Shown here piece by piece: positions 2,884-30,667 of a stretch of 48,284 bases of DNA (its first letter is position 1; every line of letters begins with the position of its first letter). Source of the DNA: Solobacterium sp. (GTDB lineage Bacteria > Bacillota_I > Bacilli_A > Erysipelotrichales > Erysipelotrichaceae); contig JAFWCM010000103.1 of the NCBI GenBank assembly GCA_017536885.1, positions 1-48,284 on the forward strand. Reading direction: 5' to 3'. The notes beneath the pieces are model-generated. The model searched no databases and was not told the origin of the DNA. It was given only the letters and a program-made list of their open reading frames with translations. Made by a program: the position numbers and the translations under genes.

Positions 2884-3333
2884 TTGTTTGATTTTCTGAA
2901 AAAACTCTTTTCAAACCGTGACACGATCACGGAACCTGATACAGCGATTGTACCTTCCGGCAAGGCGGAAGATAACCAATCCGGCACAAGGCTTTGTAAA
3001 ACCTGTGGAAAACCAATTTCGTACAATCCTGCGTGGAGAAATATTCCAAAGTATTGTGCAGACTGCAGAGCGAACTATAAAGCTTCCAGGCAGTCCAGAC
3101 AAGGTATGATTACCATTACCTGTAAAAACTGTGGAAAAACAGAAACCATTCCAGAGAATGTTCAGCACTGGCCGGATCTCTGCCAGGAGTGCAGAAGAAA
3201 ACTGCCAGCGCAGCAGATAACCAGAACCTGCAGAGGATGCGGGAAAGAGTTTACCTTTCCTTCTACGGTAAGACACTGGCCGAATTACTGCCGGCAGTGC
3301 CAGGCAAAACACCGCAAGAGAAAAATGAAGTAA
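2884..3333 (+). CDS. Small protein with three treble-CxxC zinc-ribbon repeats
   Basis: About 149 residues. After a short amphipathic N-terminus come three successive modules of about 30-40 residues, each with a CxxCGK pair and a second CxxC pair (CKTCGK/CADC, CKNCGK/CQEC, CRGCGK/CRQC). Each would bind one zinc ion. Aromatic spacer motifs such as HWPDLC and HWPNYC recur, so the modules arose by internal duplication. The tail is basic. I prefer the TTG start at 2884 because AGGAGGA lies at 2870-2876 at ideal spacing and gives MFDFLKKLF. An ATG at 2860 would place that Shine-Dalgarno inside the gene. The role is unknown; nucleic-acid or protein binding is plausible. Confidence 0.7.
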   Translation: MFDFLKKLFSNRDTITEPDTAIVPSGKAEDNQSGTRLCKTCGKPISYNPAWRNIPKYCADCRANYKASRQSRQGMITITCKNCGKTETIPENVQHWPDLCQECRRKLPAQQITRTCRGCGKEFTFPSTVRHWPNYCRQCQAKHRKRKMK

Positions 3334-3383
3334 GTTTCTCAGCCTGAATAAAGGCTGTTCCGGCACTTTTGAAAGTACAGAAA

Positions 3384-3437
3384 AAGCAGAGGTCTGCGTA
3401 TCAGATTTTATCTGAATCGACCTCTGCTTCTTTTTTT
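3384..3437 (+). terminator. Rho-independent terminator after the zinc-ribbon gene
   Basis: An 11-bp stem (AAGCAGAGGTC with GACCTCTGCTT) encloses a second small stem (TCAGA/TCTGA) and is followed by TC and seven T residues. The rest of the gap to 3681 shows no gene that I can support. Confidence 0.85.
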
Positions 3438-3681
3438 CCATAAGAATCATTCCTGCCGGAAGGATGCCTGTTTCAGAACCGTGCACAATGATTCTGGCAG
3501 AACGCAAAGTCTTCCTGAGACTTGTCAGTAGAATGTAGAATACAGAAAGCCGCTCTGGAACCATATCTGTCTGAACCGCATCAGGATTTCCTTCTTTGAT
3601 TCCTTCGATTTGTTCTAAGCATCAACTTTCTTATTCCATTCAATACCAGGATTTTTAATAGTCTTCTGGCGGGAAAGCAGA

Positions 3682-4466: not shown

Positions 4467-5775
4467 TTACTTTGCGGTGGCAGCGGAATCGGGATAAATT
4501 CCGTCATAAGTCATGATTCCAAGATCTGTAATTCTGCTGGAAACACCTTGTTCTTTCATGACCGCCTGAATATTCTCTGCAATCGCAGGATTATCGAAAC
4601 ACATAGTCGCTCCGATCGTCAAAAGATCTCCGGTGGTAAGCGTGGAGAAATTCACGGGGGTTTCAAAGGAGGGCAGGGAAAGATCAACGGTAATCAGGTG
4701 CGCGTAAATATCCTTCGGAAGCTTCAGCACACCGACATTGGTAAGAAGGAACGCCATTGCCTGACGGTTCTTTTTTTTTCTCGGCCATCTTTCTTTCCTC
4801 AGAATCAAATACCTCTTCAAAGGACATCTTCCGATACTCCTGTACTTCACGCCTTTTTTTACGGATCGTTTTTACCGCGGCTTCCGGTGTATTTCCGTTT
4901 CTCAACTGTGCCTCAATCTGCTGTGCTTCCACCGCAAAAGGGGCAGCTCTCAGCTGAGAAGGAATGCCGAGCGTAACATATCCGGAAAAATTGAACATCG
5001 TATCCGACTGCGCGAACGGTCTGATATTTGCAGTAACGACCGCGAGCATCAGTTTGTCTGCGGTATCATAGGTTTTCTCAAGCGCTTTGGCAACCACTGC
5101 CGTAAGCCATGCGCTGACCGCGGTACCGGCACGCTGCGCCGCCGCCTTCGCATCTTTGGAAGAACAGGATACCTTGAAGCTGCGGCAGGAGTAATTTCCC
5201 GCTTCATCCCAGCAGGTTTCCGGAAGGGCAAAAGGAACAATCTTTCCGATGTCGCCCGCCGGTTCTTCAGGAATGGAACAGTCCGCAAACCGCTCTGCGG
5301 TTTCCTCCAGTTCCGCTTCCGCATCATATGGAATCTCATTGGTGCGGACAATTCCTTCCGGATCCACCGTCACACCGGTTTCCTTCAGATAGTAATACAG
5401 CAGTGTCTTAACAAATTCCATCACTCCCCGGCCATCGGTAATCGAGTGATGCAGGGAAAGAACAATCGCATTGTCACGGAAGGAAATCCGGAACAGATAT
5501 CCGTTGGTTTCCTCACTGCCAAGATGATACTGATTCCCTTCCTGCAGACTGAATACCGGCGCCGGACGTTTGTTTTCTTCGTATTCAAATCCATCACTCG
5601 TCCAGACTAACCGCATTGCAAATGCAGGATACCGCTTCATCGTCTGTTCTGCTGCGCGGATCAGAGCGATTTCTTCTATCGGTTCCTTCATTTCCATCTG
5701 TACATGCAGGATCGTGGAGTTCTCCTTATTCCCGTGTACAAAATGGGAGTAATTGGTTAATGTGATATGTTTCAT
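4467..5775 (-). pseudogene. Condensation-like acyltransferase, frameshifted at an A9 tract
   Basis: Belongs to the CoA-dependent acyltransferase/condensation-domain superfamily (alcohol acetyltransferase-like, COG4908 type). A canonical HHSITDG motif (HHxxxDG) sits at about residues 109-115, with a typical N-terminal half. The frame breaks in a run of nine A on the coding strand (plus-strand T run 4771-4779). Removing one A joins the N-terminal part (5775 to about 4779) to the C-terminal part (about 4770 to 4467) and gives exactly 435 residues. The two paralogues in the nearby operon have 434 and 435. The start at 5775 follows AGGAGGAAGT. Possible explanations are a recent mutation, a slippage or phase-variable tract, or a sequencing error. 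It lies about 2.8 kb past the end of the operon holding its paralogues, in a separate transcript on the same strand. Confidence 0.8.
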
Positions 5776-6257
5776 ACTTCCTCCTGGCATTTTCGGCTAA
5801 TTCTACCATATTCATGCATGCATTTCCCAGCTTTTCTTTCCGAAGCAATGTTTACGCATGCATCTCAGAGTGTTTTGAGCTCTGCGTTTTCCCGTATACA
5901 AATATGGTGTTTACGTGCATACTTTGGCCATGAAGCGCACAGATGCTGATCCGGAACGGTCAAAGAAGGATCGGGAAAAAGGAAGAACTCTCGAAAGGTC
6001 CGTGTCATCTATGGCCTGTATGGGAAGAAACAGACCTGTACCGATCACAGTGACTGGACTGCAGTACCTATCCGGTCTGAATACAGCCAGCAGGAATACA
6101 TAAAAAATGAACTCGGATTCCACCTTCTGCAATAGGGCAGGGGCTGTGTTCTCTTCGTCTGACGAGAACATAATCCGCAATTGTTTTTGTGGATGTGTTT
6201 TTACAGATTGGGTATTTCCAGAACACAATCTTTGGTAAAATCTTTTTAGCTATAAAA
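5776..6257. other. Gene-free gap with decayed minus-strand coding traces
   Basis: No intact gene is supported. The left edge carries the acyltransferase promoter region and two copies of a GCATGCAT-type palindrome (near 5814 and 5855). From about 6105 to 6180 the sequence resembles 16290-16370, the coding body of the minus-strand gene beside the second repeat. This stretch is therefore probably the dead remainder of its paralogue. Confidence 0.5.
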
Positions 6258-6478
6258 TCGTAATTTGCACAGGAGACCTAAACTTTCTTATTTTTTGCGC
6301 TGTTATTTGATGTGAGCACGTCATTTTGCACCCGCTGCATGATAGAAACAACAAATATTAAGATGATATTAACGTAATTCAAACCACGCAATTATTCGCA
6401 AAAAACGTCAGCAATCCTGTTAGCACTGTCCTCCGACGAGAGGGGTTATTGAGGACTCGTATGCAAATGAATACTTTT
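6258..6478. repeat. 221-bp duplicated segment, copy 1
   Basis: This segment aligns without gaps to 16386-16606, with about 20 mismatches by my count (roughly 91% identity). It lies 53 bases upstream of CPBP gene 1. On the minus strand it holds a promoter-like region and the first 20 codons of a small gene (start at 6340) that begins MQRVQNDVL. In this copy a TAG at 6278-6280 stops the frame, where the other copy has CAG. A 48-base stretch inside that N-terminal region is identical in both copies. Confidence 0.85.
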
Positions 6479-6531: not shown

Positions 6532-7392
6532 ATGAAAGAGAAAAAACAACGAAGCCACATAATAACAGAGAAAGTTCCTGTTCTCGCCATTGCGTTCTGG
6601 ATCCTTTTTGCTTTTGTGCTGGAAATAATCATGGGGGAGCTGTTCAAATCAATCTTTCCGTCCGACGGAACGAAAATGGGAATCGAAATGATCAGTAATA
6701 CTTCCTCGCTCTGCATGTCGATCCTGCTAATGATTCTTATGAAAGTCTGGTATTCGCCGCAGTATCAGGGAACGCTGAAATCCGGTTTGCCGCTTAAGCT
6801 GACCCTTTTGGTCATGGTGCCGATGGTCATCAAGAGTGTTGTTGTCCTGGTTATTCAGCTGTTCCAGTACAGCTTCTGGTTCGATCCGTCTTTTTTCAAT
6901 ATCATAAAGGCGCTGGCTGCTGGATTCTGGGAAGAATGCGTATTTCGTCTGACTGTAATTCCGATCGCGATGGGATTCATCAAAACGGAAAAGAAGATCT
7001 GGCTTGTGCCCGTCATCTCCGGACTGATATTCGGAATTATGCATATGGTGAATATCAAAGGCGGCGCATCCGTATCCAACACCCTGATCCAGGCGCTTGT
7101 GACCTCCCTGGACGGCTTCTTCTACGGCGCATTGTTTGTCGTTACGGGTTCGGCTTTTCCTGGCATCATTCTGCATTCGGCTTATGATTTCATCTGCTTT
7201 GCCGGAGACAAAAGCCTTACGAACGGAATCATGACCACGAACCTTCAGACATGGGAAATCATCTTCAACATTGTGCTTTCCCTGATTGTCTGCGCAGGCG
7301 GTGTCCGGATTATCAGGAAAGTCGGCAATAACAAAATCCTCTCGGTGTGGAGGAAAAAATGGAGTCAGAAAGCAGACGCCATTCAGGGTTAA
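6532..7392 (+). CDS. CPBP family intramembrane metalloprotease (copy 1)
   Basis: A 286-residue multi-pass membrane protein of the CPBP (CAAX protease / bacteriocin-processing) family. All three signature motifs are present: EECVFR (Glu134, Glu135, Arg139), FGIMH (Phe167, His171) and HSAYD (His215, Asp219). About seven or eight hydrophobic segments are visible. The start follows a perfect AAAGGAGGT. A small hairpin (AGCAGGG/CCCTGCT, 6496-6514) ends six bases before that site and might influence translation. Members in Firmicutes often give immunity to, or process, small peptides; such peptides occur in this window, but a link is only inferred. A close paralogue of equal length lies at 17910-18770. 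Confidence 0.92.
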   Translation: MKEKKQRSHIITEKVPVLAIAFWILFAFVLEIIMGELFKSIFPSDGTKMGIEMISNTSSLCMSILLMILMKVWYSPQYQGTLKSGLPLKLTLLVMVPMVIKSVVVLVIQLFQYSFWFDPSFFNIIKALAAGFWEECVFRLTVIPIAMGFIKTEKKIWLVPVISGLIFGIMHMVNIKGGASVSNTLIQALVTSLDGFFYGALFVVTGSAFPGIILHSAYDFICFAGDKSLTNGIMTTNLQTWEIIFNIVLSLIVCAGGVRIIRKVGNNKILSVWRKKWSQKADAIQG

Positions 7393-13109: not shown

Positions 13110-15106
13110 GCGAGATCCTCCCTGTTGGTAAAAAGAAATTCTTCAATACTGAAATCATTGTCGTACAGGAAATCCATACAGTAGACCGGCTTGCCTTCCG
13201 GATAGTCGGTATGGAAATCGCTGACCGCCTTTAAGATGATCCTTGCGCTCATCGAGGTATCGCGGCGTTTGTCGATGAAATACTCTGTGCCGTGATCGCT
13301 GAAGGAAATCCGCAGCCATTCCGGCATCAGGGTGATCTTCATCCGAATCTCGCCGGAGGCGGAATAGGCATCCATGATCCGCTCGGTTAACATCTCCTCC
13401 ACCGCCAGCTGCATCTGCATTGCCCGCTTGGGGCTGAAGCCCACCGTATCGGCAAGATTGTTTACCATGGTGGTGACGGGGACAATCGCATAGCTGCTGT
13501 TCTTGACCTTCACATCGAACACGGTGACACCGCCCGAAAGCTCTTCACTGACGGCAATCCGCTTCAGCCTGCTAAGCATGTCTACTCTCAGCGTGCGCTG
13601 ATCGAGCTTTCCGTTCACATTCAGGGGAAAGCTGTCATAGAGAAAAATGTGGGAGGGAATCTTGAACCTTGCGACAAGACTCCGAAGACTCTCCTTCATG
13701 GCCGATGGATCAAAGGGGGCGTTTTTGTTGTGCAGGGTGACGCAGGCTTCTACACTCTCTCCGTAAATCGGATGCGGAGCTCCCATGACTTTCACCTGGT
13801 TCACATTCTCCAGCTGGGAGAGGGCATTTTCGATCTCGGAAGGAGAGATGTTCTCGCCGCCGCGGATGATCACATCCTTGATCCGTCCGGAAAGATGGAG
13901 GTAATTGTCTTCATCAAAGTAGCCGAGATCGCCGGTATGAAGCCAGCCTTGCTCATCAATCGGCTGTTTCTCCCGGGGAAGGGCATAGTAGCCGTTCATG
14001 AGGTTGCCGCCTTTTGCGATGACCTCACCGATCTCATTGACCGGAAGGAAGCCGCCTTTTCCGTCAGAGATGCGGATGTCGAGACCGGAGACCGCCCGGC
14101 CTACCGTCTGGGCTCTTTTTTCGACAAGATCGGAAGGCCGCACCATGGTAAGCGGTGCAGCTTCACTCTGACCGTACATGTTGATAAATGTCGCATTGGC
14201 ATATTCCAGCTCCAGCCGCATCATCTGTACCGGGGTCGACATACCGCCGGCAATCATGCAGAGATGCAGGTAGGGAACCACACATTTCCTGAACTCCTTC
14301 GCTTCCGCAAGGGAGAGGTAGACCGCTCCGACCGCGGTCATATCCGAGATCCGGTACGCATCGATCTCGCGGATCAGAGTTTCCGGTTTGTAGTTGGCGG
14401 GCAGGCATACCGTGCATCCCCGGCAGAGCCATGTATAGCTCATCAGAAGACCGAGGATATGAAACAGCGGTACGGCTGTGCACAGACTGCGGCCGGCCTG
14501 CTCACCGAGGTTTTCAATCATCGCATCGGCGTCAAACGACAGCGCTTTCTGGGAGATCTCTACTGCCTTGGGCATGGATGTGGTGCCGGAGGTAAAGATG
14601 ATAAAAGCGGTTTCCCCGGCTTCTTCCTCGGTACGCATCTCGTTTTCCGAATGGAAGGAGCCATACTGACGGAAGAGATTGACCCGGTCGGAATGAATGC
14701 TCAGACAGTGCTCTTGTTCAATGCCGGCAAGTTCAGCCAGGTGTTCCATGGCCCTGGGATCTTTCTTTTCCACCGCAGTTTCGCCAGAAAGGAGAAATCT
14801 GGTATCTGACATCTTCAGCAGTTCGGCTGCCTCTTCCACACCGCTGCTGTAGTTCAGAAGCACGGCTACACCGCCGGCTCTTACAATCGAAAAAAAAGCG
14901 ATCAGCCAGTTGGCAGAGTTATAACCGAACAGTGCTACCCGGGTGCCTTTCTGCACACCGAGTTCCGAGAGCTTTCCGCTGAGTCCGGCAATCCCTTTAT
15001 GCATCTCTTCATAGGTGCATTGTCTGCCGTTTCCGACAACCGCCATTCTTCCCGGATATTCCCGGCTGAGACGATTTGAGAAAAGATAATTCCGACTTGT
15101 TTCCAT
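13106..15106 (-). CDS. ANL-superfamily acid:CoA/AMP ligase fused to an anti-sigma-type HATPase domain
   Basis: A 666-residue two-part protein. Residues 1-510 form an adenylating enzyme: TSGTTSMPK (172-180), YGQSE (311-315), TGDLG (391-395) and the A10 Lys in NVNGKLDQ (Lys500). Residues about 528-650 look like an RsbW/SpoIIAB HATPase. Its catalytic Glu is kept (Glu571), but the Mg-binding Asn of the N-box is Glu575. The G1 box reads DHGTEY (Asp604, Gly606). It may thus bind the STAS partner yet phosphorylate poorly. I choose the ATG at 15106; an upstream in-frame ATG at 15208 would add 34 residues that overlap an integrase relic and lack family similarity. It is the first gene of the operon. 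Confidence 0.88.
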   Translation of the reverse strand: METSRNYLFSNRLSREYPGRMAVVGNGRQCTYEEMHKGIAGLSGKLSELGVQKGTRVALFGYNSANWLIAFFSIVRAGGVAVLLNYSSGVEEAAELLKMSDTRFLLSGETAVEKKDPRAMEHLAELAGIEQEHCLSIHSDRVNLFRQYGSFHSENEMRTEEEAGETAFIIFTSGTTSMPKAVEISQKALSFDADAMIENLGEQAGRSLCTAVPLFHILGLLMSYTWLCRGCTVCLPANYKPETLIREIDAYRISDMTAVGAVYLSLAEAKEFRKCVVPYLHLCMIAGGMSTPVQMMRLELEYANATFINMYGQSEAAPLTMVRPSDLVEKRAQTVGRAVSGLDIRISDGKGGFLPVNEIGEVIAKGGNLMNGYYALPREKQPIDEQGWLHTGDLGYFDEDNYLHLSGRIKDVIIRGGENISPSEIENALSQLENVNQVKVMGAPHPIYGESVEACVTLHNKNAPFDPSAMKESLRSLVARFKIPSHIFLYDSFPLNVNGKLDQRTLRVDMLSRLKRIAVSEELSGGVTVFDVKVKNSSYAIVPVTTMVNNLADTVGFSPKRAMQMQLAVEEMLTERIMDAYSASGEIRMKITLMPEWLRISFSDHGTEYFIDKRRDTSMSARIILKAVSDFHTDYPEGKPVYCMDFLYDNDFSIEEFLFTNREDLA

Positions 15107-15183
15107 GTTCTTTTTTCCCCGTAAAGTGACTTTTTTTATAACACTTATACTACTTGAGAATTTAAAGCTTTCGACTATTTTAT

Positions 15184-15417
15184 GTGCATATTGTAACCCA
15201 TGACGCAAAAGAACGTACTTATTTTACACATGAAGAATTGAAAAAATTTCTTGATCTTCCAACACCCAAATCACCTATGGGTTATCGAGATCATGTTCTT
15301 TTGAATGTCATGTATCTCTTTGCGATGCGGAGCAAGAATCAGCAATTTACCTCCAAGCACATTTTCAAATTATCTGAAAAAGTATTTAAGGGAAACAGAA
15401 GAAAAGACAATGGATAA
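15184..15417 (+). pseudogene. Tyrosine recombinase fragment
   Basis: About 45 codons from 15184 resemble the start of the catalytic region of phage-type integrases (pattern YFTHEELKKFLDLP, then GYRDHVLLNVMY). The similarity fades where the first catalytic Arg should lie (the sequence reads FAMRSKN), and the frame soon ends. The rest of the enzyme is absent, so this is a relic of a mobile element. It abuts the promoter region of the divergent minus-strand operon. Confidence 0.6.
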
Positions 15418-15545
15418 CAAGAATCAGGATGACTCGTTGTGCATCCTATAAAAATCAAAGAAGACCGGTGGTGAATTCGGCCGGCAGACAGCGAAACGAT
15501 CCCGCTGTCTGATACAGACCAGGCTTGCAAAAGGATAAAACGATC

Positions 15546-15921
15546 ATGACTGAAAACACGAAGAAGTTTTTGGAAGCTCTCAGCAAGCAGGACAAAGCAT
15601 TTTCGGAAAAAAGTGAAGAAAGCTGACAAGGCCGGCGTCATTGCCTTGGCAAAAGAACTCGGCATCACGCTCTTAGATGAGGATTTTGCAAAGCCGGAAG
15701 ATGAGGGTGAACTCTCTCTGAAGCAAGCGGATTCGGCTTCCGGCAGAAAGAAATGTTACTGTGCCGTCGGCGGCGGTGAATCGGGTCCCAATGACGAAAC
15801 CTGCTGGTGTGTTGCGGTTGGAACCGGCGATGGGTTCCCGCGCTGGCACGGCTGGTGCGACGCGACGGAAATCGAGCGCTGCATCTGTGTCGGCGGGGGT
15901 TATGGCGAATCATACGATTAA
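15546..15921 (+). pseudogene. Nif11-type Cys-rich natural product precursor, frameshifted at an A6 tract
   Basis: Removing one A from the run at 15607-15612 joins two frames into one 124-residue peptide. Residues 1-58 match the Nif11-like leader pattern (FLEALSKQDKAF, then VIALAKELGITL, then GELSL). The rest is a Gly/Cys-rich core with seven Cys: CYC (70, 72), CWC (86, 88), WC (104) and CIC (112, 114), separated by GGG-containing stretches. Nif11-leader peptides are substrates for ribosomal peptide modification and export. The usual GG before the core is replaced by SG here. No modifying enzyme or exporter is visible nearby. As sequenced, translation from 15546 stops after 26 codons. The break could be a mutation, slippage or a base-call error. 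Confidence 0.7.
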
Positions 15922-16111
15922 TCGTTTCCTGACTGAAAAAAGAGGATCGGAAAACCGCTGCGCTGAGATTAATCTGCCTGGCGTTAAAAAGGATTTTCAT
16001 AACAGCTGTTCTCTGGGAAAATAAATCCGGCATTTGACAGCCGTCTTAGCATCGGGCAGACAATGAGATCATTGAACCGGGCATATTCCTGATCTCTTTT
16101 TTCGAGGATAA

Positions 16112-16468
16112 TCAGGAATTGCAGGTCCGCTGTGCAGACGACTTTACCGGAGATAACACCCTGAGTAAAAAAGAGAACGCGGATACTGGTCTGGCTGTTG
16201 GTGTCCTGCCTTTTTCTGCAGCGTTAAAAAACAGGTCAGACTGACCCGCAGAATTGAAGCAGGCATAGGATCCCACTGAGCTCTCAAAAGAAAACATGTC
16301 TTTGATTCCGGCTTTTGCAATATGGGCAGGGGGGATGACCTCTTCGTCAAGCGAGAACGATATCTCCGGTCTTTTTTGAGAAAAGTCGTAATTTGCACAG
16401 GAGACCTGAACTTTCTTATTTTTTGCGCTGTTATTTGATGTGAGCACGTCATTTTGCACCTGTTGCAT
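16112..16468 (-). CDS. Hypothetical protein, 118 residues, beside repeat copy 2
   Basis: An open frame beginning MQQVQNDVL and containing VSCANYDF and ISFSLDEEVIPPAH. I do not recognise it. A coding role is supported by a decayed paralogue beside copy 1 (about 6105-6340), which keeps the first 20 codons and a VSCANYDF segment but has TAG at codon 21. A good promoter lies just upstream (16491-16519), but no ribosome binding site is visible. The transcript would start only about 15 bases before the ATG. The C-terminal third is Ser/Arg-rich and may be frameshifted. The segment could instead be mainly regulatory. Confidence 0.35.
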   Translation of the reverse strand: MQQVQNDVLTSNNSAKNKKVQVSCANYDFSQKRPEISFSLDEEVIPPAHIAKAGIKDMFSFESSVGSYACFNSAGQSDLFFNAAEKGRTPTARPVSAFSFLLRVLSPVKSSAQRTCNS

Positions 16469-16606
16469 GGCATAAATAACAAGTGTTAAGATAATATTAA
16501 CGCAATTCAAACCATGCAATTATTTGCAAAAAACGTCAACAATCCTTTTATCACTGTACTCCGACGAGAGGAGTTATTCAGGTCTCGTATGCAAATGAAT
16601 ACTTTT
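16386..16606. repeat. 221-bp duplicated segment, copy 2
   Basis: Gap-free partner of 6258-6478, with about 20 mismatches. It covers the upstream region and first codons of the minus-strand hypothetical gene. Here the matching CPBP gene begins about 1.3 kb downstream, because an APH-like kinase gene lies in between; in copy 1 the gap is only 53 bases. The rest of the gap up to 16793 holds no gene that I can support. Confidence 0.85.
16491..16519 (-). promoter_or_regulatory. Promoter for the minus-strand hypothetical gene
   Basis: On the minus strand TTGCAT (16519-16514) and TATTAT (16496-16491) are separated by 17 bases, close to the sigma-A consensus. The equivalent site in copy 1 reads TTGCGT and TATCAT and would be weaker. 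Confidence 0.55.
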
Positions 16607-16793
16607 TTGAGAAAGAATACTATGAAGGCGGCAATGATGCAGAATAAGACAACTGCAGAGTCTGAATCACCTTAAGGGTTTTTGGCATTGCTTTGATTGC
16701 TTTTCCTGCAGATTCCAAAGCATTTTCTGATGCAGGGAAAAGGAAAGGTTCGCTGAAACAGATATTTTCAGGTAAATAGTTGGAGCACAAGAT

Positions 16794-17684
16794 ATGATAG
16801 TAAGAAACTGGGATATGAAAAAGTTACGGGAGATAAGCATAGAAGGATGCCCTGAGATAGGACGAGGCGCACATGGAATCGTGTATCAGACCGCCCCGGA
16901 TATGCTGGTCAAGGTTTATAACGAAAATGCTTCCATTGATTCCATACAGAAGGAAAGAGAACTGGCGCGCTGGGCGTTTGTGAAAGGAATACCTACGGCA
17001 ATTCCCTTTGATATCGTGCGGGTCAATGATCGGTACGGAATTGTGTTTGAACTTCTGGAATCAAAATCCTCGGCTGATTATATCAGGGAATCACCGGAAC
17101 ATTTTGAGAGTTTCCTCAGAAAATCTGTAGATTTAATGAAGCAGATCCATGCGGTTACGGCAGAACCGGGTGATCTTCCGGATATGAAACAGCAGACATT
17201 GAGCTGGCTGCCGAAGGTTCATAAGTTCCTGCCTGACAATCTTTGTTCAAAACTGGATGCTTTCGTGAATACGATAAAGGATACGCAGACGATCATACAT
17301 GCGGATTTTCATATGAAGAATGTATTGATATGCGGTGATGAACTGATGCTCATTGACATGGATACACTGAGTACGGGCGATCCGATTTTTGAACTTGCGA
17401 CAGTGTTTGTATCCTATCGCGAGTTTCCTTCCATAGAGCCGAAAGCTGCGTATATGCTGGGAATCGACGTCGAAACAGCCGCAAAAATCTGCGATCGGAT
17501 TTTTGAACTGTATCTTGATGAGGCGGATGAGGAGACGCTTCGTGAGACAAAGGATAATGCACAGCTGCTGGGCTGTATCAGAATCATTGATTTTATGGAC
17601 CGGCATTCGGAACTTCCGGATCGAGAGAGGTGTGTTGACCGCTGTGTACAGGATATTACGGAACTCCTGCAGAAAAGAGCGTAG
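16794..17684 (+). CDS. APH/choline-kinase-like phosphotransferase (TIGR02172-type)
   Basis: A 296-residue protein with the aminoglycoside phosphotransferase kinase fold. It shows a Gly-rich loop GRGAHGIVY (near residue 24), an ATP-binding Lys in MLVKVY, the catalytic loop HADFHMKNVL (near residue 168) and LIDMDT as the metal-binding DFG equivalent. This resembles an uncharacterised Firmicute/Fibrobacter kinase family rather than true resistance enzymes, so the substrate is unknown. ATG 16794 follows a GGAG; a second ATG at 16815 is possible. It stands between the duplicated 221-bp element and the second CPBP gene and so may have been inserted there. Confidence 0.8.
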   Translation: MIVRNWDMKKLREISIEGCPEIGRGAHGIVYQTAPDMLVKVYNENASIDSIQKERELARWAFVKGIPTAIPFDIVRVNDRYGIVFELLESKSSADYIRESPEHFESFLRKSVDLMKQIHAVTAEPGDLPDMKQQTLSWLPKVHKFLPDNLCSKLDAFVNTIKDTQTIIHADFHMKNVLICGDELMLIDMDTLSTGDPIFELATVFVSYREFPSIEPKAAYMLGIDVETAAKICDRIFELYLDEADEETLRETKDNAQLLGCIRIIDFMDRHSELPDRERCVDRCVQDITELLQKRA

Positions 17685-17909: not shown

Positions 17910-18770
17910 ATGAAAGAGAAAAAGCAACGAAGCCATACGATTACAGAGAAAGCTCCTGTTCTCGCCATTGCGTTCTGGATTGTTTTTGCCTTTGTGCTGG
18001 AAATTGTCCTGGATGGTCTTTTTAAATCATTCTTTCCGTCCGACGGAACCAAAACGGGAATCGACATGATCGGTAATATTTCCTCGATCTCCATGGCGAT
18101 CCTGCTTATGATTCTTATGAAAGTCTGGTATTCGCCGCAGTATAAGGGAACACTGAAATCTGGTTTGACGCTTAAGCTGACCCTGCTGGTCATGGTACCG
18201 ATGATCATTAAGAGTGTTGTTGTTCTGGTTATTCAGCTGTTCCAGTTCAACTTCTGGTTTGATCCGTCTTTTTACAATATCGTAAAGGCGCTGGCCGCCG
18301 GATTCTGGGAAGAATGCGTATTTCGTGTGACTGTAATTCCGATCGCGATGGGATTCTTCAAAACGGAAAAGAAGATCTGGATTCTGCCCGCCGTCTCCGG
18401 ACTGATCTTCGGAATTATGCATATGGTGAATATCAAAGGCGGCGCCACCATAACTAACACCCTTACCCAGGCACTTGTGACCTCGCTGGACGGATTCTTC
18501 TACGGCGCACTGTTTGTCGTTACGGGTTCGGCCTTTCCCGGCATCATCATGCATTCGGTGTATGATTTCATCTGCTTTGCCGGAGACAAGAGCCTTACCG
18601 ACGGAATCATGACCACTTCTCTGCAGACATGGGAAATCATCTTCAACATTGTGCTTTCCCTGATCGTCTTTGCGGGCGGTGTCATGATAATAAAGAAAGT
18701 CGGCGATACCAGAATCCTCTCGGTGTGGAGGAAAAAATGGAGTCAGAAAGCAGCCGCGATTCAGGGGTAA
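17910..18770 (+). CDS. CPBP family intramembrane metalloprotease (copy 2)
   Basis: A 286-residue paralogue of 6532-7392 with the same length and no internal gaps. EECVFR, FGIMH and HSVYD are all kept. Differences are scattered and mostly conservative, mainly in the first membrane segments and the loop near GGATITNT, so both copies seem to be under selection. The start follows AAGGATG. It has its own strong promoter at 17837-17864. Substrate and role are unknown; family members can protect against or process small peptides. Confidence 0.92.
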   Translation: MKEKKQRSHTITEKAPVLAIAFWIVFAFVLEIVLDGLFKSFFPSDGTKTGIDMIGNISSISMAILLMILMKVWYSPQYKGTLKSGLTLKLTLLVMVPMIIKSVVVLVIQLFQFNFWFDPSFYNIVKALAAGFWEECVFRVTVIPIAMGFFKTEKKIWILPAVSGLIFGIMHMVNIKGGATITNTLTQALVTSLDGFFYGALFVVTGSAFPGIIMHSVYDFICFAGDKSLTDGIMTTSLQTWEIIFNIVLSLIVFAGGVMIIKKVGDTRILSVWRKKWSQKAAAIQG

Positions 18771-27114: not shown

Positions 27115-30100
27115 ATGAAGAAAGTTTTATCTTGTCTTTTTGCATTGTGAACGGCAGCTGCTTTAACGACCGGTTTTATCTCTGTCTCAGCAGAAGAGGC
27201 GGACCTTTCAGAAGACAGCACGACTGAACCTGTACAGGAAACTGAGAACAAGGAAAACAGTTCTGACCCTTCTTCGGAAAATGAGAACTCTGTTCAGGAA
27301 GACTCTCTTCCCGAACCCGGTGAACCAGATACCCCGGAAGATGCGGATCAGACCGGGGAAGTTCCGTTCAGCACCGAAAATGATGAAACTGTCAATGATC
27401 CCGAAGAAAATGAAGAAAAAGAAGAATCTCTTGCCATGCAGTCCGAGGCATTGGATTCCCCTGAGCCGCTGACATTCACCGTACAGCCGCAGCCGCAGAC
27501 CGTAAACTATCCGGATCCTGTGACATTTCACGTTGAAGTATCCGATCCTGACCGGGTCGCTTCCTGGCAGTGGTATGTAACAGATATGGCCGAAAAGGAT
27601 CATCTTCTGGACGGTGTAACGGCCGCAACCGATACGCTGAAGTATCTTGCCACCACAAAATATGATAACGGACAGAGGTTCTACTGTCAGGTTACCGATA
27701 CAGACGGCAATGTCATCAGCTCTGACAAAGCTGCTGTCACCATCGCAAACTCCGATGAAGTCCTGAGTCTGTTATATGTAGGGGAATATGCCCTGTCCCC
27801 GGGGGATTCCATCGATCTTTCCGAAACAAACTACGGAACGGGAGTCATTTCCTTTGATCAGAACGGCAGAGATTTCACCTTTGATCATGTTGCCATGAAA
27901 AATGACTGGGTTTCCTCCGGATCCATTCTGACCCTGGCAACCAATGTTGCACTGTTCGGTGAGGCACATACAGGAGACGTCAGTACTCTCACACTCATCG
28001 GAGAGAATGATCTTGACAATTACTACTATTCCGAAAAAACGAACACCAGCGGAGTTCCCCTGGAGTACTATATCCTCGGCGCGCAGGAAAATCAGATGAC
28101 GTGTGTGATCGATGGTCCCGGTACACTGGCGATTCACGGCTGAACAAATGCAATCTATTCTTTGGCGGATCTCACAGTGAACACAGGTATCACCGTAACT
28201 CCGAAACACCTTTACAACGATGGAATCTGGGCAAAGAATATTACGATCAGTCCGAATGTCGAATTGAATCTCGATGTATTGGGAACAGCGATTATGACGG
28301 AAAAATCTCTTACGCTCGGTGAGGGTTCAAAACTTAATATAACCACCCTTGCGCCGCATTACGCAGGGGCAGAGACGGAAGCGGGAGTGATCTATGTAAA
28401 AGACGGCAACGCTTCGATCAGGAACGCGGAGATCAATATCGATGCCGGAGCGGATCCGGAATTCTTTGAACCTTACGGCAAGTATATCGGTGCGTTTCAC
28501 GGAATCCGGGTCGAGGGCGGTTTATTCGCTGAAAACAGCCATATTAATATCAATATGTGGGCGAAGAAAGGCGATAAACCTTACGCTTCAACCTTTACCG
28601 GTATGGTAACTGAACTTCATAATCCTATTGAACTCACCAGCACGGAAGTGAATGTCACGATTCATTCGGAAGATATCTATAATGCCAACGGTCTCTACAC
28701 TTCCGGAGCCCTGACGATGAAAGACAGCACCGTATCCGTCGATCTTCAGGCAAATGACCGAATCAGAGGCATTTTCTGCGGTGGTGAATTCACCGTGACC
28801 GATTCCGATGTTGAAGTGATTGCGGAAGAACTGAGCGGTGCGAAAACCTACGGTATTATTGCCGGAGAAAGTTATTTCTCGCTCTCAGGCAGTCACAGAA
28901 TTCACAGTGCCGCCGCAAACGGCATTGGCTTCTGTGCCGATACGCTGGAGAACGGCGCAGCGGACAGAGAATATGAGGAAGGCTATCAGTCTGCTCATAT
29001 CTTCCTGAATGACAAAACAGAGTGCCTGGTTCCGGATAATTATCTGATCAGTCTGACCAGTATTGAGGATCCGTTCGTGTATTATGAATATTACGAAACC
29101 TATTATGAACCGGAGGATACTTCCGCTCCCGCTGCCGAAGTTCTCATTGCAGCGAATGAGCCGGAGTATACCTACACCGACGGTACAGAACACTTCTGGA
29201 AGACGGGAAGCAGTGACGGTCTTGACGCTGTTGTAAAACGCGGAAACAATGATTCACATGCATTTGAGAAATTTACCGGAATTCAGGTGGATGGAACGGA
29301 TGTCTCCGCTTCCGATTACACAGCGGAAGAAGGAAGCGTGAGAATGATGCTGAAACCGGAGTATCTCAGCACCCTGGACTTCGGAAGCCATACGCTCACC
29401 TCACTGTTTGAGGACGGATCGGCAGATACGCAGTTCACGATCGGATCAGAAACCCCGGAAATCACCATATTCATCACCGGTAATTCCGTTTCTTCCGTGT
29501 ATAACGGGAACGAACAGACAGCGGAGGGATTTGAAGTTTCCTGTGCGAGCAGTCTGTTTGATGAGAACGATCTGTCTCTTAAAGACGGTGTCATCTATGA
29601 AGCCTCCGGCAGGGATGCCGGGATCTATTACATGGGCCTGAGCCCCGACTCCTTTGTTTACAGTGATAAGACAGTCGGCGCAGTCCTGGTCGTAGAAGAC
29701 GGAACACTTATGATTTCTCCTGCACCGCTCACGGTAAGAACGGGATCCGCATCGAAATACTATGACGGCAAACCGCTTTATAATTCACAGGCGAAGCTTT
29801 CCGGGCTGGTAAACGGGGAAACCGCGGAAGTAAAGGCGACCGGTTCGCAGACAGCCGTCGGTTCCAGTAAAAACACCTATGCCATCTCCTGGGATACCGC
29901 GAAGAAAACCAACTACATCATTATCGAAAAGCTCGGAATTCTGACCGTCAGAGAAAAGGGAAGTTCGTCTGATTCCGGAAGCAGTCCGTCCTCCGCCGGC
30001 GGGCAGTATTCTTATTCTCCGCAGGTGATCAATACTGCCGATTCGCATGAGATATCCCATTGGGCAAGGACGCTTGTCATTTCGATCTGCACCGCAATCC

Positions 30101-30135
30101 TTTCGGCATGGATGATGAAACAGAACAGGCTCTGA
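27115..30135 (+). pseudogene. Large surface protein gene interrupted by two in-frame TGA codons
   Basis: One frame of 1,007 codons runs from the ATG at 27115 to the TGA at 30133, broken only by TGA at 27148-27150 (codon 12, inside the signal peptide) and at 28141-28143. With both read through, the protein has a signal peptide (MKKVLSCLFAL, then TAAALTTGFISVSAEE), a Glu/Pro-rich linker, an Ig-like domain (SWQWYVTDM and QRFYCQVTD, about residues 122-215), a long beta-rich region resembling parallel beta-helix or carbohydrate-binding modules, an MBG/YDG-like domain (LTVRTGSASKYYDGKPL, about residues 870-945), a Ser/Gly linker and a C-terminal hydrophobic segment. Both stops become GGA (Gly) by one change. 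There is a recent pseudogene or readthrough; the code is otherwise standard. Confidence 0.75.
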
Positions 30136-30286: not shown

Positions 30287-30667
30287 ATGCATGAAAAAAC
30301 ATTACTGACTGATGATGAAATAGATCGCGTTTCCGGCGGTGTGCTTCAGTCTACGGAACATACTGTTATGATCAGCAGTTCCAATTTCGATTCGTTTATC
30401 CATTCGGCCGAAAATGTCGCCGTGATGTTCGGGGCTTGCTGGTGCGGTCCCTGTCATATGATGTCCGAGACATCCGAGCGTTTTGCGGCGAAGAATCAGC
30501 ACGCTTCCGTCGGCTTCGTTGATGTGGATGAGCCCTCAAACCAGAAACTGACAGATGCGCTGGGAATCAATGCAATTCCTGCCATCTTTTATTACAAGAA
30601 CGGAGTACTCAGCGACCGGACAGCCGGCGTTGTTCCGCTCGAGCGCATGGAGCGCGCATTCCAGTAA
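30287..30667 (+). CDS. Thioredoxin-fold protein with a double-glycine secretion leader
   Basis: A 126-residue protein. Residues 1-18 (with LTDDEIDRVSGG) match bacteriocin-type double-glycine leaders: acidic, with hydrophobic residues at -4, -7 and -12 before Gly17-Gly18. The rest is a complete thioredoxin domain with CWCGPC (active-site Cys53 and Cys56) and the cis-Pro in NAIPAIF. Family knowledge implies that a C39-type ABC exporter would cleave after GG and export a redox protein; no such exporter is in the window. The start is firm: AAGGAGG lies eight bases before the ATG. It lies 151 bases after the broken surface-protein gene. A non-exported thioredoxin with a chance GG extension is the alternative. 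Confidence 0.85.
   Translation: MHEKTLLTDDEIDRVSGGVLQSTEHTVMISSSNFDSFIHSAENVAVMFGACWCGPCHMMSETSERFAAKNQHASVGFVDVDEPSNQKLTDALGINAIPAIFYYKNGVLSDRTAGVVPLERMERAFQ

Follow-up and report, generated by a model that had tools for sequence, protein, structure and literature searches.

Precursor peptides with a Nif11-type leader (TIGR03798/PF07862) are the closest described relatives of the gene analysed here, and the sections of the literature that bear on them (PMC2887384; Haft, Basu and Mitchell 2010) already record that such precursors can lie at a distance from their enzymes. Likewise, Nif11 leaders served by a radical SAM enzyme as sole maturase are already documented in the part of PMC3023750 drawn upon here. 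The window, by which we mean the whole stretch of 48,284 nucleotides that was analysed (contig C284 of genome G000; 3.41 Mb in 316 contigs, 95.01% complete), holds a genuine precursor gene that is probably an orphan in decay; it belongs to a RiPP family with Nif11 leaders, the core of which consists of three CxC...GxG units.

With the Nif11-derived precursors, as the pertinent parts of PMC2887384 describe them, this family shares a Nif11-like leader ending in Gly-Gly in the relatives, an NHLM exporter (in locus L012, a cluster discussed below) and precursors that possibly lie far from their enzymes. It differs from that description in its three CxC...GxG units and in having a radical SAM enzyme rather than a cyclodehydratase or LanM, and the window copy differs further in falling below both curated cut-offs, in its broken frame and in carrying Gly-Arg for Gly-Gly. 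In that a radical SAM enzyme appears to mature a Nif11-leader peptide unaided, the family recalls the radical SAM maturases for Nif11/NHLP peptides in the relevant sections of PMC3023750, but the L012 enzyme reaches only 77.1 bits with TIGR04103 (rSAM_nif11_3; cut-off 725). A Cys-rich core combined with a SPASM-type radical SAM enzyme also characterizes the sactipeptides and ranthipeptides, at least in the excerpted account of PMC11002830; unlike these, the present family has a CxC...GxG core, thioethers that are at most putative, and an L012 enzyme that scores 53.5 bits with the PapB model (cut-off 340). Finally, the prochlorosins, in those portions of PMC10783134 that concern us, have Nif11 leaders and could likewise have a single enzyme serving precursors whose genes lie elsewhere, but they combine LanM chemistry with many variable cores, in contrast to the few precursors and single conserved core pattern seen here. 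We did not recognise the three-unit core or its enzyme clade in the open-licence papers searched, and the family is apparently an undescribed, small branch of the Nif11/radical-SAM RiPPs.

The precursor gene starts with the ATG at 15546-15548 of the plus strand, just where the sequence-only reading had placed it (Table 1). Its frame changes on or near the A6 run; if AAAA is taken as a single codon, the leader in frame 0 and the core in the +1 frame are joined into one protein of 124 aa, which upholds the one-base frameshift claimed earlier. In this assembly the gene is observed not to form a single open reading frame, being interrupted by the stop at 15624-15626, and there is no further stop after the A6 run. 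The core contains seven Cys (CYC, CWC, WC and CIC) and five Ser/Thr. An Rfam scan of 15000-17000 returned 0 matches, and promoter and terminator scans gave signals not clearly above those of shuffled sequence. The TIGR02225 match of the short upstream ORF is far below its cut-off, with a TIGR-type repressor model scoring alike, and a Pfam search found no match for this ORF.

Table 1. Features of the precursor gene and its upstream flank in the window.
Feature	Position	Strand	Basis
Short ORF preceding the peptide gene, weakly XerD-like, perhaps a relic of a recombinase	15184..15417	+	TIGR02225, E=0.0017
AAAGGA, Shine-Dalgarno-like	15530..15535	+	10 nt upstream of the ATG; read from sequence
Leader fragment, frame 0, 26 aa	15546..15626	+	TGA at 15624-15626; weak profile match, E=7
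A6 run, presumed frame-change site	15607..15612	+	Read from sequence
Remaining leader and core, +1 frame, GTG 15613 to TAA 15919-15921	15613..15921	+	Independent HMM, E=2.7e-16
Gly-Arg replacing Gly-Gly, presumed leader cleavage site	15742..15747	+	Alignment with 10 other members
Core, CYC..GGG..CWC..GTG..WC..CIC..GGG	15748..15918	+	Read-through protein and alignment

Membership of the family was judged with a precursor HMM to which four other genomes supplied eight sequences (one from G066, five from G272, one from G429 and one from G352). This profile matched the +1-frame segment over profile positions 19-115 with E=2.7e-16, the top score among 1,612 six-frame segments of the window, and since the window's own genome had contributed nothing to the HMM, chance similarity could be rejected. 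The leader fragment aligned to positions 2-14, which is the adjoining part that would be expected, and was not significant when taken alone (E=7). The read-through leader scored 22.6 bits with TIGR03798 (cut-off 32.3) and 21.4 bits with PF07862 (cut-off 23.8), and among four intact relatives scanned in the same way, three reached the TIGR03798 cut-off and one that of PF07862. The identification of a seven-Cys Nif11-type precursor is thus sustained by the HMM match and by a leader that is Nif11-like though below the curated cut-offs; the lack of any homologous Nif11 leader in profile searches, named beforehand as evidence against it, was only half borne out, in that profile matches exist but stay under those cut-offs. 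The second-best match of the precursor HMM in the window was a thioredoxin (30287-30667, plus strand; PF00085, E=5.1e-16), which was not significant (E=1.4) and whose N-terminal part, closing with VSGG, resembles a double-glycine leader for export.

Like the intact relatives, whose cores are built of three CxC...GxG units, the window copy shows three such units after the leader, with all six pattern Cys retained, and it keeps 23 of the 30 columns in which seven foreign members do not vary (a count from which G352 was excluded). The start of one of the L012 precursors differs by 3 bases between two predictions. At the presumed leader cleavage site, by contrast with the GG found in 10/10 other aligned members, the window copy has GR and hence no Gly-Gly site.

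The search for related precursors that the sequence-only reading had suggested yielded two paralogues in G000 itself, on contigs C173 and C257, as well as the precursors in G066, G272, G429 and G352. The precursor occurs in 2/70 genomes of the genus (G000 and G066), and the same two genomes account for the 2/272 found in the family. A pattern scan of 84,980 species genomes confirmed two loci, L012 in a Eubacterium MAG (G272) and L013, the latter being, by its peptide sequence, the G066 contig. Among genomes around that of L012, 8/397 matched, of which G272, G429 and G352 were counted as the CxC-GxG precursor type; G372 was set aside for its different core, and so were the weak matches (E 4.8e-6 to 3.8e-5) in G382, G609, G451 and G284. 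Plasmids gave no match, and none of 44 pattern stretches in viral contigs was confirmed.

The candidate enzyme that accompanies clustered precursors is a radical SAM one, and in both G272 and G429 the maturase, exporters and precursor(s) share one cluster, which supports the assignment of the window gene to a RiPP family. At L012, an HlyD-like gene, an NHLM ABC1 with C39 (TIGR03796; 955 bits, cut-off 853.3), an ABC2 (TIGR03797; 725.7 bits, cut-off 709.4), the radical SAM enzyme and four tandem precursors stand together, and a fifth copy of the precursor lies on another G272 contig. The G429 cluster comprises the maturase, a C39-type ABC transporter, a second ABC transporter, an HlyD-like protein and one precursor, these genes having been named by similarity of sequence start and by size rather than by NCBIfam; it also holds a PAS-Rce1-like fusion. 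In G352 a divergent precursor is located directly upstream of a maturase, and in G066 precursor and maturase occupy separate contigs, with an HlyD-ABC1-ABC2-STAS locus elsewhere.

The relatives' maturase exceeds the Radical_SAM cut-off and has no match to SPASM Pfam models at E 0.1. Its CxxxCxxC motif (C106, C110, C113) is invariant in 11/11 aligned maturases, as are seven further Cys (C345, C363, C410, C413, C419, C423, C443), the spacing of which we take to be a SPASM-like layout. The L012 maturase remained below the cut-off of all 25 NCBIfam models among the matches listed (83 matched). In those genomes where the family seems to be functional, the leader would presumably direct to the core a maturase of the radical SAM/SPASM type that is dedicated to it, and this enzyme would cross-link the cysteines by radical chemistry. 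Cleavage after Gly-Gly and export of the product would then, judging from the gene content, fall to a C39 transporter of the NHLM type.

What is the situation in G000? The earlier statement that no maturation gene lies in the window proved correct, as neither modification nor export genes were found there and no match on C284 came from searching the genome with the maturase of the relatives or with Peptidase_C39, LANC_like and YcaO. Carried out over the whole genome as had been proposed, these searches for maturases and a C39 exporter found, among the 11 matches listed for the L012 maturase, seven strong radical SAM ones, the best of full length being 37% identical (C181), together with four Peptidase_C39 matches over the cut-off, three to LANC_like and one to YcaO. 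Export genes of the C39/NHLM kind are therefore present in the genome, as identified by C39 and not by an NCBIfam NHLM assignment.

The maturases of all four other precursor-bearing genomes (G272 with L012, G429, G352 and G066) form one clade (100/99), and no G000 enzyme falls into it in either of two trees, so that a maturase of the matching clade was not found in this 95.01% complete genome. The partial C144 enzyme, at a contig end, is 47% identical to the L012 maturase over 252 residues; it groups with C279 (100/100) and adjoins another kind of precursor. C181, tried as the cognate maturase on account of being the best full-length match, had to be dismissed because of the tree and because its relatives have neighbouring precursors of their own: it groups with enzymes adjoining other precursors in G066, G055 and G046, and a tree constraining it with the L012, G066 and G429 maturases was rejected (p-AU 1.6e-6; the constraint group was picked after inspection of the first tree and excluded G352). 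The precursors beside the C181-type maturases in G066 and G055 are of the type DRDW...CAATVEP...NDACW (loci L048, L049 and L054), the one in G046 being different. At E<=1e-120, a threshold at which partial genes could be missed, the maturase matched 2/266 family genomes, namely G066 (the query, 100%) and G000 through C181 only (42%), so the cognate clade was seen in G066 alone. Each maturase tree had 29 rows; both left out G066:C99 and G066:C47, the matches in G058, G067, G013:C10, G027:C21 and G046:C567, and the weak G000 matches C126, C81, C306 and C4, and the second (constraint) tree also dropped the long branches G000:C184, G010:C267 and G027:C43. Related maturases of sister species are split or carry an in-frame TAG (G058 C17; G013 C18 and C1), and maturases may thus decay in these species too. 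On G000 contig C9 (L030, 5183-5602), a short ORF with a tandemly repeated GG-leader-like and core-like unit is separated by some 2.4 kb from a radical SAM maturase.

With a frameshifted leader and a lost Gly-Gly, and in a genome where the matching maturase clade was not found, the window copy would most likely yield no mature product. The earlier proposal had left two ways out, enzymes from elsewhere in the genome or a gene that is being lost. The former stands insofar as maturases and exporters exist in G000 and fails insofar as the matching clade was not found; loss is the most likely reading, being favoured by the change of GG to GR in the window copy, by the paralogue on C257, which lacks both leader and Shine-Dalgarno sequence (two kinds of damage that the earlier proposal had not reported), and by the missing clade. 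In the paralogue on C173, leader, GG, Shine-Dalgarno sequence and core all appear intact, which suggests that the precursor family is perhaps still used in G000. A recent duplication of the three copies together with their flanks was considered and rejected, the DNA matches being short and confined to the gene. G000 also has, on C279, a Nif11 precursor of another type, whose leader is interrupted by a TGA and whose core contains a second stop codon; this precursor (L032, about 3100-3640) adjoins an intact maturase.

That the window gene is a decayed orphan is, however, not free of counter-evidence. The intact C173 copy sits in the same genome, the window copy retains its six pattern Cys and has acquired no later stop, so that its decay is either recent or not real, and both G272 and G066 keep orphan copies far from a maturase that they do possess. 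In addition, a genome that is 95.01% complete in 316 contigs could hold the cognate maturase in a gap, C181 or another of the seven enzymes could be used promiscuously, and the trees include neither the four weak matches of G000 nor several fragments belonging to other genomes. We put forward only tentatively, and with some doubt, the broader proposal that the CxC-GxG peptides form a RiPP class in its own right, with its own clade of SPASM enzymes, and that G000 has been caught losing it, with the enzyme gone and the precursors left as one intact copy, one frameshifted with an altered cleavage site and one leaderless; the order of these losses, like the function of the family, we infer.

It is conceivable, if rather unlikely, that the A6 frameshift is a sequencing or assembly error and that an intact orphan precursor is modified in trans by a G000 radical SAM enzyme and exported by a C39 transporter. 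Core and leader otherwise fit the CxC-GxG family, orphan copies in trans are known in G066 and G272, and G000 offers seven candidate maturases and four C39 matches; moreover, the third acyltransferase paralogue of the same window (4467-5790, minus strand) is also frameshifted near a run of A (A9, 4771-4779), which makes errors or mutations in such runs possible on this contig. The GR is, however, independent of the A run, the matching clade was not found in G000, and of the 24 A/T runs of >=6 in 32 ORFs of >=150 aa only the A9 meets a known break, a count biased by the short ORFs that broken genes give and by the perhaps spurious nature of some of the 32. Nor is it probable that the gene works despite its frame change, with translation restarting at GTG 15613 or slipping on the A run to give a shortened leader or a little of the full precursor. 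The GTG begins 11 bases before the frame-0 TGA with a GGA 6 nt upstream, and the downstream frame is stop-free; on the other hand, a +1 skip would be required, an A6 run is, in general terms, short for slippage, no other aligned leader-bearing member starts in this way, and the GG site is lost regardless. A lanthipeptide or azole precursor served by LanM-like or YcaO enzymes of G000 is very improbable, even though the genome has three LANC_like and one YcaO match and prochlorosins are, in the section of PMC10783134 that treats them, Nif11-leader lanthipeptides made by one promiscuous enzyme. Seven Cys face only five Ser/Thr in the core, clustered precursors sit with radical SAM enzymes, inspection of L012 and L100 by eye brought up nothing resembling LanM, and the contigs with LanC and YcaO hold other GG-leader-like peptides. 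None of the three LANC_like matches was seen paired with the CxC-GxG family.

The broken gene is in itself of little weight; its value is to have pointed to a small family of precursors, with a Cys pattern that is unusual and regular, and to a matching enzyme clade that no NCBIfam model listed for the enzyme of L012 covers at cut-off. With the clusters of G272 and G429, new peptide chemistry by radical SAM enzymes could be tested on short sets of genes, and the contrast between genomes offers a case for how RiPP precursors decay after enzyme loss.

Elsewhere in the window, two ORFs in the same frame at 27436-30135 (plus strand), split by a single stop at 28141-28143, may represent a single surface protein gene that has acquired a nonsense codon. 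Two intergenic regions share a 238-base repeat that is 89.5% identical (16370-16606 and 6241-6478), and closely similar proteins are encoded at 6532-7392 and 17910-18770 (plus strand), the second of which is CAAX protease-like (Rce1-like).
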